DNA from: Candidatus Peregrinibacteria bacterium CG1_02_54_53
GTDB lineage: Bacteria; Patescibacteriota; Gracilibacteria; Peribacterales; Peribacteraceae
DNA: 64,000 nt
Assembly: GCA_001872575.1 (NCBI GenBank)
Contig: MNWP01000020.1
Coordinates: forward strand, 72,747 to 136,746
Direction: 5' to 3'
Position numbers and translations under genes: made by a program. The notes beneath the pieces were generated by a model. That model made no database searches and was not told the DNA's origin. It saw nothing but the letters and a program-made list of their open reading frames with translations. The stretch's first letter is position 1; every line of letters begins with the position of its first letter. Of this stretch, positions 5,788 through 63,036 are shown in pieces.

Positions 5788-5829
5788 GTGCAGGAATTCA
5801 AGAAGGAATTGAGGCAGCTCTTGAAGTAA
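5788..5829 (+). pseudogene. Remnant resembling the 3' end of nrdR
   Basis: Thirteen codons plus TAA encode VQEFKKELRQLLK, closely matching the real NrdR end VVEFKKELGRLLH. The base differences are largely synonymous (TTT/TTC, AAA/AAG, CTG/TTG). The fragment is in a different frame from nrdR and has no start. Its TAA lies inside the first unit of the 9-bp array at 5825. It may be the leftover of an older or replaced nrdR copy to which the repeat element became attached. Confidence 0.5.
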
Positions 5830-5863
5830 GAAAAGTAAGGAAAGGCAGGAGAGTAAGGAAGGG
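5825..5863 (+). repeat. Purine-rich 9-bp tandem array, left arm of element A
   Basis: Units AGTAAGAAA, AGTAAGGAA, AGGCAGGAG, AGTAAGGAA, then GGG. The first unit includes the TAA stop of the upstream reading frame. The same unit occurs inverted (TTCCTTAC) at 6253-6297 on the far side of the four-helix-bundle gene, so the two arms could pair in DNA or RNA. Confidence 0.8.
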
Positions 5864-5872
5864 ATTCTCTGC

Positions 5873-5878
5873 TATGAT
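5873..5878 (+). promoter_or_regulatory. -10 box of the four-helix-bundle gene (leaderless)
   Basis: TATGAT ends 6 bases before the ATG at 5885, the same spacing as at several other genes in the window. Probable leaderless transcript from inside the element. Confidence 0.5.
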
Positions 5879-5884
5879 TTCATC

Positions 5885-6247
5885 ATGCTCAGAAAAATGG
5901 ACATTGGCTTCCGCAGGCTCATTGTCTGGCAAGAGGCAAAAAAATTGGCCCTTAAAATCTATGGAGTAACAAAAGTATTTCCTAAAGAGGAGCAGTTTCA
6001 CCTCTTGACACAAATTCGCAGGGCGGCCACGTCAATCATGGCAAACATCGCAGAAGGATCGGCAATGCAGACACGGGCACACCGTGATGCTTTTTACGGT
6101 AAGGCACGGGGTTCTGTGGCAGAAGTGGATGCATTCATTGAGTTGAGTTCCGACCTGGATCTGATAGCAAAAGCAGATGCAAACGATATTGCTGACCATT
6201 GCGCTCGTTTGAGCTATCTTCTTACCCAATTACTGAGAAGCAAGTAG
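5885..6247 (+). CDS. Four-helix bundle protein (23S rRNA IVS / S23 family), element A
   Basis: 120 aa. The family signature is clear: FRRLIVWQEAKKLALKIY, then FPKEEQFHLLTQIRRAATSI, NIAEGSA and the helix FYGKARGSVAEVDAFIEL. Family members are small helical bundles known from intervening sequences in 23S rRNA genes and, in related form, as accessory proteins of diversity-generating retroelements; their biochemical role is mostly unknown. Here no rRNA, reverse transcriptase or variable repeat is nearby. The gene sits alone between two inverted 9-bp arrays and between nrdR and aspS, all on one strand. A -10 box 6 bases upstream supports this start; an internal ATG at 5897 is possible. Confidence 0.9.
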   Translation: MLRKMDIGFRRLIVWQEAKKLALKIYGVTKVFPKEEQFHLLTQIRRAATSIMANIAEGSAMQTRAHRDAFYGKARGSVAEVDAFIELSSDLDLIAKADANDIADHCARLSYLLTQLLRSK

Positions 6248-6252
6248 CTTTT

Positions 6253-6297
6253 CTGTTCTACTTTCCTTACGTTCCTTACGTCCCTCACCTTCCTTAC
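6253..6297 (+). repeat. Pyrimidine-rich 9-bp tandem array, right arm of element A
   Basis: Five 9-base units: CTGTTCTAC, TTTCCTTAC, GTTCCTTAC, GTCCCTCAC, CTTCCTTAC. They are the reverse complement of the left-arm unit (AGTAAGGAA). The array begins 6 bases after the four-helix-bundle stop and ends 3 bases before the aspS ATG, leaving no room for a ribosome binding site. Confidence 0.8.
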
Positions 6298-6300
6298 CTC

Positions 6301-56808: not shown

Positions 56809-57234
56809 ATGCACGTTCTCCTCATTTCGGCATTTCTCAGCGGCACGGTCAGCATTGTGAGTGCTGTTTTGGCCGATACATTCCTCTCACAACACATTCC
56901 ACTTGCAGGATCCTTTGCAGGGTTGCAGTTCTCGCAAAACCCGGGAGTCACCTTTGGAGTCGCTTTTGCTCCCACCCTGCAGATGACACTGATTGCCGTT
57001 GCCCTCGTGGCCGTTGCATGGATGTCGCTCAAAGCACATAAAACGGCAGAACGAGTGGCATATGGGCTCATCCTTGGAGGCGGATTGGCGAACATTATCG
57101 ATCGTTTGCGCGACGGTCTTGTCACCGATTACTTCCAGATTGGCTCTTTCCCCGTGTTTAACGTGGCGGATAGCTGTATCACGGTGGGGGTTGGTATTCT
57201 GTTCATGGAGTTTTTGCTGAAGCGGAAAGGGTAG
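56809..57234 (+). CDS. lspA: Lipoprotein signal peptidase (signal peptidase II)
   Basis: Membrane aspartyl protease that removes lipoprotein signal peptides. 141 aa with four hydrophobic helices. The two catalytic Asp residues are in ANIIDRLRDG and VFNVADSCI. Slightly shorter N-terminus than most family members. The stop codon TAG is followed directly by the 7-bp array of element C. Confidence 0.93.
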   Translation: MHVLLISAFLSGTVSIVSAVLADTFLSQHIPLAGSFAGLQFSQNPGVTFGVAFAPTLQMTLIAVALVAVAWMSLKAHKTAERVAYGLILGGGLANIIDRLRDGLVTDYFQIGSFPVFNVADSCITVGVGILFMEFLLKRKG

Positions 57235-57340
57235 AGACGAAGAATGATGAAGTAAGAATTATGAATTAAACAGGGAATTGCTCAGATTGCATTCCACGTT
57301 CATTATTCTTGATTCTTTATTCCTCATTCATACTTCAATT
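57235..57340 (+). repeat. Element C: inverted 7-bp arrays without a gene
   Basis: Left arm 57235-57269, heptamers including GAATGAT, GAAGTAA, GAATTAT and GAATTAA. Right arm 57299-57340, six heptamers: TTCATTA, TTCTTGA, TTCTTTA, TTCCTCA, TTCATAC, TTCAATT. The right arm is the reverse complement pattern of the left (NNANGAA against TTCNTNN). The 29-base core has a GGAAT/ATTCC hairpin and no open frame. The element begins right after the lspA stop and ends 42-54 bases before murA. Confidence 0.75.
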
Positions 57341-57394
57341 CCTTCCGCAAACCGCTACCACCCGCCATCCCTTCACGCTAAAATGCACTCCTCT

Positions 57395-58732
57395 ATGGAT
57401 ATCCGCTATCGCGTACGCGGCGGGCTTCCCCTCCGTGGCGACATCCAGATCAGCGGCTCGAAAAACGCAGCGCTTCCGCTTATCGCAGCATCGGTTCTTG
57501 CCAGCGGAGAAACGGTGCTTCACAACATTCCCCGGCTGCGTGACATCACGGTCATGCTGCGCATTTTGGAATTTCTCGGTGCCGAGACTTCGTTTCAGGG
57601 CAACATCGTTCGCATCCGCACGCATAAGCTTCAGAATCGATTAATCCCCAGCGAACTCGTGAACAGGTTGCGCGGATCGATCGTGTTGCTGGGCCCCCTG
57701 CTTGCCCGTTTCGGCGAGGTATCAATGGCCTATCCGGGCGGTTGCGTGCTTGGCAAGCGACCGGTTCATGCCCACATCGTTGCACTTGAACAATTGGGGG
57801 CAAAAGACCGCAGTACTGATGAAGTGTTGCATCTTGAAGGAGCGCTGAGGCCCGGTCGCGTGATCCTGCCTGAATTCTCTGTGACAGCGACGGAGAACGC
57901 CGTCATGGCCGCCGCTCTGGTTCCGGGAGAAGTGCAAATTGATCTCGCTGCAGCCGAGCCGCACGTACAGGAAGTGGAGAAAATCGTGGCTTCAATGGGG
58001 GCACAGGTGCAGGGAATCGGTACGCATACGGTGTTGATTCAGGGCCAGAAGACACTGCAAGCACGCACACACACGGTTATTTCGGATTATCTTGAAGCGG
58101 GAGCGTTCATCATTGCCGCGCTCGTAACCAAAGGGAAAGTGCGTCTGCATGGAGCGGATAGTGAACACCTCGTTTCATTTCTGAGCGTACTGAAACGCAT
58201 GGGTGCCATTGTGAAACTGGAAGGAGATGTGATGTTTGTTGATGGCGAGCTTTCGACGCTGAAGTCACTCGAAGTACGTACGAACATTTTCCCCGGATTC
58301 CCGACCGATCTGCAGGCGACTATGGGCGTTGCCATGACGCAGGCTCATGGCGTGAGCAGAATCTTTGAGCGGCTCTTCGAAGGGCGCATGGCGTACCTCT
58401 ATGAACTGGAGAAGATGGGAGCGCATATTGAGATTCTCAATGCGCACGAGGCGCTTGTGATCGGCCCCACGGAACTCAAGGGACGCATTGTTTCGAGCAA
58501 TGATATTCGTGCCGGAGCGGCCATGGTTCTGGCGGGTTTATGTGCAAGCGGAGACACCACCATCACCGACATTCGCTACATCGAGCGTGGCTATGACCGT
58601 TTCGATGAAAAACTGAGATCTCTCGGAGCGGACATCGATAAAATCGTCACCGAGGAACATCGCGAGCAGAATGATGAGGCCGATGCCTCGCTCTCCTCTG
58701 GCGCACCGGCTCTGCTCGTGGCACAGAAGTGA
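57395..58732 (+). CDS. murA: UDP-N-acetylglucosamine 1-carboxyvinyltransferase
   Basis: First committed step of peptidoglycan synthesis. 445 aa from Met 57395 (57383 also possible). The start YRVRGGLPLRGDIQISGSKNAAL, the active-site loop with Cys117 (PGGCVLGKRPVHAH) and the end with DIRAGAAMVLAGLCASG and ERGYDRFDEKLRSLGADI are typical. The Cys is the residue modified by fosfomycin; forms with Asp there are resistant. A TAAAAT box lies 10 bases before the chosen start. Confidence 0.96.
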   Translation: MDIRYRVRGGLPLRGDIQISGSKNAALPLIAASVLASGETVLHNIPRLRDITVMLRILEFLGAETSFQGNIVRIRTHKLQNRLIPSELVNRLRGSIVLLGPLLARFGEVSMAYPGGCVLGKRPVHAHIVALEQLGAKDRSTDEVLHLEGALRPGRVILPEFSVTATENAVMAAALVPGEVQIDLAAAEPHVQEVEKIVASMGAQVQGIGTHTVLIQGQKTLQARTHTVISDYLEAGAFIIAALVTKGKVRLHGADSEHLVSFLSVLKRMGAIVKLEGDVMFVDGELSTLKSLEVRTNIFPGFPTDLQATMGVAMTQAHGVSRIFERLFEGRMAYLYELEKMGAHIEILNAHEALVIGPTELKGRIVSSNDIRAGAAMVLAGLCASGDTTITDIRYIERGYDRFDEKLRSLGADIDKIVTEEHREQNDEADASLSSGAPALLVAQK

Positions 58733-61211: not shown

Positions 61212-61235
61212 GTTTAGGGTTAGGGTTAGGACTAG
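61212..61235 (+). repeat. Solo TTAGGG-type array after a stop codon
   Basis: Starting one base after the stop TAG (61208-61210): TTTAGGG, TTAGGG, TTAGGA, CTAG. Same unit as the arrays around the four-helix-bundle gene at 62.6-63.0 kb. No inverted partner lies nearby; the nearest CCCTAA array on this strand is at 62990. Confidence 0.75.
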
Positions 61236-62588: not shown

Positions 62589-62980
62589 CTAGGATACAGG
62601 GTTAGGGTTAGGGTTAGGAGTATTTTTTCGATCTGTGTTTGTGAAACGACGAATGAGTCCAGAAAGCATCTTTCCAACTTCCTGCAGCAATTTCATTGCG
62701 CACACAGTTTGTGAAGCTGAAATATGTCCTACGGTAATACATACAAGTAATAAGGCGTGTGTTTCCGCGCATTCCCCTCGTGCAATGGTGTATCTGTGTG
62801 CCTTGTCAGCCGAAGAATTTCGCCTTCTGCGGTGTTTGCGAGAATACCGGTTGAGGATCTTCGCATTTGAGAAATGAGGTTAAATTTTTCCTCAGGTGGG
62901 AATAAGGAGGTCAATCTATAGATCTCTTTGATGAGATCCATTTCTCGTTGCCAGATATGAAGGTGTTCAAATGATTTCAT
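62589..62980 (-). pseudogene. Four-helix bundle protein (S23/IVS family) with a frameshift, element B
   Basis: From ATG 62980 the frame reads MKSFEHLHIWQREMDLIKEI, then FPPEEKFNLISQMRRSSTGI and NTAEG, a clear family N-terminus. It then runs into unrelated residues and stops at 62729. Shifting by one base near 62822-62824 restores the family C-terminus (ADKAHRYTIARGECAETHAL and MKLLQEVGKMLSGLIRRF), which ends at TAG 62589-62591 after passing through the CCCTAA array (repeated Asn-Pro). One missing base explains the break. Either a dead copy, a recent mutation or a sequencing error. Confidence 0.85.
62599..62618 (-). repeat. TTAGGG/CCCTAA array, distal arm of element B
   Basis: Three GGGTTA hexamers plus GG on the plus strand. 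In the direction of the gene (minus) they read CCCTAAC-type, the inverse of the array before the gene. Lies 15 bases before the pyrF start. Confidence 0.85.
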
Positions 62981-62989
62981 AACTACTGT

Positions 62990-63036
62990 CCTAACCCTAG
63001 TCTTAGCCCTAACCCTAACCCTAACCCTAACCCTAG
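62990..63036 (-). repeat. CCCTAA/TTAGGG array, proximal arm of element B
   Basis: Eight period-6 units on the plus strand: CCTAA, CCCTAG, TCTTAG, four exact CCCTAA, CCCTAG. On the gene's strand this is TTAGGG, identical in sequence to vertebrate telomere repeats. The array starts with the TAG stop of comM (63033-63035) and ends 9 bases before the four-helix-bundle ATG. Confidence 0.9.

Follow-up and report, generated by a model that had tools for sequence, protein, structure and literature searches.

The window analysed here, a stretch of 64,000 nucleotides from contig MNWP01000020.1 of Candidatus Peregrinibacteria bacterium CG1_02_54_53, contains two consecutive open reading frames on the plus strand, an lspA-like gene (56809–57234; the name is that of the first-pass annotation), which ends in a TAG stop codon, and a murA-like gene (57383–58732, starting at 57383 or 57395), relatives of which are present in 76 of 78 genomes. 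The gap between them holds a 95 bp element, element C (57242–57336), made of inverted arrays of GAATNAN heptamers around a core. The left arm (57242–57269) reads on the plus strand as the four heptamers GAATGAT, GAAGTAA, GAATTAT and GAATTAA and starts 7 bp after the lspA stop codon. The right arm (57299–57336), on the minus strand, is the reverse complement of GAAGTAT, GAATGAG, GAATAAA, GAATCAA, GAATAAT and GAA, that is, five units and a partial one, and ends approximately 46 bp before the first in-frame ATG of murA. The GAAGTA variant of the unit is found at both ends of the element.

Both arms were parsed from the sequence and supported by self-matching at a shift of 7 (16/23 positions in the left array and 20/26 in the right), with far lower values at other shifts. 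It had been proposed earlier, from the letters alone, that period-7 inverted arrays surround a 29-base core, with the proviso that this would be refuted if the periodicity disappeared against a composition-matched null. We ran this test and the proposal stood: both arrays are detected by TRF, and the joint inverted-array score of C was matched by none of 5000 dinucleotide-preserving shuffles and by none of 4000 random slices of the window. The core itself (57270–57298, 29 nt) can form the GGAAT/ATTCC stem described in the same annotation, but this stem is weak evidence when taken alone. Because 64 of 2000 shuffles fold equally well (p ~0.03) and the cores found elsewhere in the same unit family are mutually unrelated, the core hairpin is probably incidental, a functional hairpin is unsupported, and the core, which is not conserved in the unit family, is probably functionless.

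Two further elements lie in the window. Element A (5824–6299, plus strand), a gene-bearing relative, has period-9 arms (5824–5859 and 6259–6299) around a gene (5885–6247, plus strand) which matches PF05635 with a Pfam E-value of 5e-32, and element B (62598–63035, minus strand) has period-6, telomere-like TTAGGG arms around a frameshifted PF05635 gene on the minus strand (approximately 62658–62980), the two matching halves of which are in different frames. The first-pass annotation had assigned C a position and polarity identical to those of A and B, and this holds, A and B surrounding PF05635 genes. PF05635 is the '23S rRNA-intervening protein' family (S23/IVP), a four-helix bundle of approximately 120 aa. 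In the source genome of C (G000), which was covered only in part (320 kb), inspection placed all eight PF05635 genes inside an inverted array pair, with units and periods that differ between loci and one array common to two neighbouring genes. Among the PF05635 loci inspected there, none was seen to have GAATNAN arms, and C is therefore an orphan in its own genome. A short TTAGGG array, with the unit of the B arms, was also seen right after a stop codon at 61214–61230 of the window, without a nearby inverted partner; a tRNA-like sequence lies at approximately 61290.

In order to be counted in a strict test, a PF05635 locus had to be flanked on each side by an array, the two arrays matching one another in inverted orientation. 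In six related genomes 21 of the 37 loci passed, compared with 3 of 3000 windows chosen at random. Of 75 named loci drawn from Planctomycetes, Bacteroidota, Acidobacteria, Proteobacteria, Firmicutes, Chloroflexota and Nitrospirota, among others, 49 passed, whereas 272 shifted windows gave a single pass. Twelve of the 15 PF05635 matches in four further genomes (some of which had already given a named locus) passed as well, as did all ten fetched plasmid loci, although two pairs among the latter (L230/L231 and L232/L233) are near-duplicates. Roughly one in three PF05635 loci does not pass, some of them through interrupted arrays, which the test misses even where they are clear by eye (L001, L003, L004); some of the failing loci are perhaps truly armless. 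The idea that armless loci are rRNA insertions was rejected, as no rRNA was found in 18 loci. A search of phage records found no match. Where arms are present the period is 7 in 53 of 76 loci, with 8, 9 and 10 also occurring, and arms hold approximately 4.2 units. The upstream arms of L235 and L236, as well as L161, where tens of heptamer copies stand on one or both sides, are so strongly expanded that array length can evidently run away.

The closed sister genome G003 (1,248,026 bp, covered as stretches) contains 204 short-period arrays, compared with 7 in its shuffle, and neighbouring arrays are inverted in 32 pairs and direct in only 4. A sensitive scan found 45 inverted pairs in the genome, against zero in its shuffle; two of the 45 are GC-rich coding repeats and were discounted. 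Pair sizes are bimodal, with four PF05635-bearing pairs of 459–503 bp that between them enclose every one of the four PF05635 genes, and approximately 39 gene-less pairs, mostly of 59–132 bp. Each unit family is spread across many loci, and every S23-bearing element (units GAATNAN, GGACTAA, GGGAACTA and GTAAGGAAG) has gene-less members with its own unit. GAATNAN, the unit of C, is represented by one S23-bearing element, at 178450, and approximately 17 gene-less ones. The arms of the four S23 elements match gene-less arms of G003 at 20.5–26, whereas S23 arms from other genomes match them at a median of 8.75 and reach at least 20 in only 4 of 72 cases, all from the same genus (Fisher p = 5e-5). 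The same association was observed in a gammaproteobacterial genome, where the sole PF05635 match lies between GGGAATC arms and gene-less GGGAATC pairs are also present; this unit occurs in G003 too.

Within the GAATNAN family the GAAGTA variant is found in 15 of 78 units of the outer two positions and in none of 67 inner units, showing that the arrays have an outside and an inside. Stop codons adjoining elements are TAA or TAG in 19 of 24 cases, against 48% genome-wide (p = 0.003). Fifteen elements lie within 10 bp of a stop codon where 10.2 are expected, so that a proximity beyond what small gaps force was rejected.

The same junctions were compared across species. Between nrdR and aspS, G000 and G002 carry an S23 gene between period-9 arms, while in G001 and G003 the same arms enclose, in place of the gene, a 33-nt core in which the leader CTGCTATG is retained; the element was not seen at this junction in G004 or G020. 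The atpD–atpC gap contains S23 genes in four species, with arms of AGTATGC (two species), GAATTAT and GTAGCTC, and the site of element B contains two different S23 genes with different arms, and thus the same intergenic gaps seem to be hit repeatedly. At the lspA–murA junction, G000 and G003 have the GAATNAN sequence in common, G004 and G020 have other units, and no arrays were found in G001, which contradicts the possibility that the arrays of C predated the family there in all relatives. For C itself we observe only presence and absence between species; its movement was not observed. The suggestion that C is a non-autonomous form is nevertheless supported at the level of the family, by the shared units, the gene loss at nrdR–aspS and the GAATNAN S23 element of G003. 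In two sister species (L011, approximately 1200–1250, and L014, approximately 1170–1225) we also noticed an AGCTACA-like heptamer array in frame within the lspA coding sequence.

Evidence for mobility comes from cyanobacterial plasmids. At a first site (plasmid site T), with flanks 97–98% identical, the filled form contains arms and S23 gene (approximately 430 bp), placed right after a stop codon, and GTAA is duplicated. Tolypothrix PCC 7601, Nostoc linckia and N. carneum have the empty form (AAAAAGTAA TTAACAAATAAAT ATG), Trichormus variabilis and Scytonema NIES-4073 the filled one (AAAAAGTAA TAAATCAGAATTCAG ... S23 ... CTCCTGAGTTCTTCTTTGTAATTAACAAATAAAT ATG), and Nostoc C052 has a decayed remnant there. 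A second site has the same filled and empty pattern with an apparent TTCTA duplication, which overlaps unit-like sequence and is ambiguous, and in a third pair the gap between cmr2 and cmr3 is empty in Picosynechococcus PCC 7002 and filled in PCC 7003. Arms and gene are jointly absent from the empty sites, and at two sites so far there is no pre-existing array. That these are insertions rather than precise losses is an inference, which rests chiefly on the duplication and on the empty state of the site in the majority of relatives; the relatives of C are too diverged to show whether its own junction has a target duplication. The filled sites L234 and L244 differ by two units in one array.

The function of S23/IVP proteins is unknown, and the Xanthomonas S23p is described as a toroidal homopentamer (PMC4990558). 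Structures with five chains have been solved for two relatives, 2GSC (XCC0516) and 2RLD, and the nucleic-acid target of an S23 protein can now be guessed from the flanks of its own gene. Near-invariant polar residues of the family are Q43, R46, S50, N54, E57 and E80. The array period follows the S23 tree overall (12 changes, compared with 21.6 when shuffled) and within this lineage (4 changes against 11; 0/1000), the latter value being partly inflated by shared sites; in other phyla alone the association was not significant. Nearly all period-9 loci belong to one S23 group which spans Chloroflexota and this lineage, and close S23 proteins at different sites retain their unit (L128/L140 and L132/L133). 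Unit similarity fades below approximately 55% protein identity, and a dictation of the array sequence by S23 across phyla was therefore rejected. As G003 has no match to PF00078 (reverse transcriptase) or, despite its 45 pairs, to PF01797 (Y1 transposase), neither enzyme is a general requirement, and neither was retained as a general mover; among transposases, only the Y1 type was covered.

Taken together, these data make it likely that C belongs, as a non-autonomous form without a gene, to a family of small mobile elements with array ends and S23 genes, for which no catalytic enzyme has been identified. It is observed that arms and gene are present or absent as a unit, that units form families, that outer ends are differentiated and that the gene can be lost between the same arms. 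According to this model, each end of an element would consist of about four tandem copies of a 6–10 nt unit (mostly 7), the two ends being mutually inverted, and gene-bearing members would have a single gene between the arrays, that of the four-helix-bundle S23/IVP protein. Members are intergenic and in many cases follow a stop codon directly; the outer units frequently include or provide the stop codon, and insertion there would therefore be tolerated. Gene-less members may arise via internal deletion and may be maintained, or multiply, alongside a gene-bearing member that has their unit. For the movement itself we can only infer, without binding data, that the S23 protein (five chains in the solved relatives) could bind the repeated units and pair both ends, that it could recruit a host enzyme for cutting and joining, and that gene-less copies could be mobilised in trans by the cognate S23 protein.

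An alternative possibility is that C is an immobile functional RNA hairpin, such as a bidirectional terminator or an RNase III site, kept by selection for pairing. Whole C does fold better than its shuffles on both strands (z = -3.75 and, on the other strand, -3.36), elements are located behind stop codons, and RNase III is known to cut the stems of 23S rRNA intervening sequences (PMC4990558). However, the two arms of one element match no better than arms taken from different elements of the family (14.25 within, 15.45 between). Conservation of the arms by mutual base pairing is therefore unsupported, and the values agree with recognition sites present in several copies, not with a stem maintained through compensatory changes. 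Moreover, some elements lie between divergent genes, judging from simple ORF calls, the unit at the lspA–murA junction varies between species, and both the association with a protein gene and the empty and filled sites would remain unexplained. We regard this explanation as unlikely. Marginally less likely still is an independent origin of the arrays, through slippage during replication and fold-back copying in gaps prone to hairpins, where PF05635 genes settle later. Arrays do gain and lose units, as in L234 and L244, units at one site do vary between species, and heptamer repeats are widespread (PMC4692102), but slippage accounts neither for the joint absence of arms and gene at empty plasmid sites, two of them without any earlier array, nor for the dispersal of unit families across one genome, the difference between outer and inner units, the retention of a unit by close S23 proteins at different sites or the agreement of period with the S23 tree in this lineage. 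The idea that an A+T-rich spacer is periodic merely by chance, to which only the modest score of the left arm alone (8) lends anything, can practically be discarded given the shuffles of C and the excess of arrays and of inverted neighbours in G003.

The preferred reading, a mobile S23 array element that has no gene, invites comparison with known systems. C meets what would define the family: an inverted pair of short-period arrays, the unit of an S23-bearing element (G003, 178450), a distinct outer unit and absence from a relative (G001). The 23S rRNA intervening sequences, such as the 428-nt one of Coxiella with its S23p ORF, also exist in short ORF-less forms and are considered selfish (PMC4990558), and rRNA insertions of CPR bacteria likewise include 23S_rRNA_IVP ORFs and short ORF-less inserts (PMC11270868). 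The two kinds of element are alike in protein family, similar size, inverted ends and forms with and without the gene. They differ in that intervening sequences reside in rRNA, whereas S23 array elements lie between protein genes, end in tandem arrays and have not been shown to be excised from RNA; C is accordingly not in an rRNA gene, and the S23p ORF is present in some family members but not in C. MITEs and other non-autonomous insertion sequences resemble C in their short gene-less copies, inverted ends, in-situ deletion derivatives and dispersed families, but S23 elements have no known transposase and end in arrays rather than in one inverted repeat. Ends common with a transposase-bearing element are lacking, the partner genes being PF05635 with no Y1 transposase, the one type covered, in G003, and the Y1 (HUH) transposase partner of REP/RAYT systems is equally missing there.

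Short tandemly repeated repetitive (STRR) heptamers of heterocystous cyanobacteria are described as simple repeats and not as the ends of gene-bearing elements. C, too, consists of tandem intergenic heptamers, and S23 genes of Nostoc, Calothrix and Anabaena plasmids are flanked by such heptamers in the same organisms. In Xanthomonas, GGGAATC heptamers form 70–75 convergent inverted pairs, preferably of four units, near or overlapping stop codons (PMC4692102). The same unit flanks the gammaproteobacterial S23 gene mentioned above. The Xanthomonas study, in which PF05635 does not appear, reads the heptamers as G-quadruplex sequences. The TAACTGA repeats of marine Beggiatoaceae are likewise intergenic heptamer arrays, but they are direct, lie upstream of genes and are read as translational regulators (PMC4679880).

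The cyanobacterial STRRs and the Xanthomonas GGGAATC repeats thus appear to be the same thing as the S23 array-ended elements. More tentatively, and with rather less than even confidence, we propose that these are minimal mobile elements spanning phyla, in which a pentameric S23 protein of approximately 120 aa without a known catalytic fold recognises both arrays, that they insert behind stop codons through host enzymes or an unrecognised active site (Q43, R46, S50, N54, E57, E80), and that the heptamer repeats of cyanobacteria, Xanthomonas and elsewhere are their ends and gene-less derivatives. Such a family would explain heptamer repeats known since the first cyanobacterial reports and would join three puzzles, the role of S23/IVP, the origin of intergenic heptamers and the selfish rRNA intervening sequences. 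If no catalytic enzyme is encoded, this would be an unfamiliar way of movement for a minimal element, and the named empty and filled sites on the Tolypothrix and Trichormus plasmids make mobility directly testable. C is ordinary within the family; what appears to be new is the family itself and the link of S23 genes to heptamer repeats. No paper on the PF05635–array link was found in the open literature, and as subscription papers and preprints were not covered this novelty is provisional.

Some S23 elements lie within CRISPR operons of cyanobacterial plasmids, in cas6/cas4 and cmr2/cmr3 gaps (L235, L236 and L238), which may explain why PF05635 is among CRISPR-linked families. At the cas6–cas4 junction, where Anabaena sp. 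90 has an S23 element, Dolichospermum has a different inverted-repeat element (L284, 771–1015; GTTGGGTTGA...AACCCAACC). The Avd protein of diversity-generating retroelements is a four-helix protein homologous to S23 (PMC10053308), with a weak bAvd match in our data; these retroelements differ in their reverse transcriptase, which is not matched in G003, and few S23 genes lie beside one. In the source genome two PF05635 genes with a common AACTTGA array (L006 and L009, C20:50189–50862) are located approximately 1 kb behind a reverse transcriptase (C20:48734), an arrangement that resembles a diversity-generating retroelement whose proteins are Avd-like.
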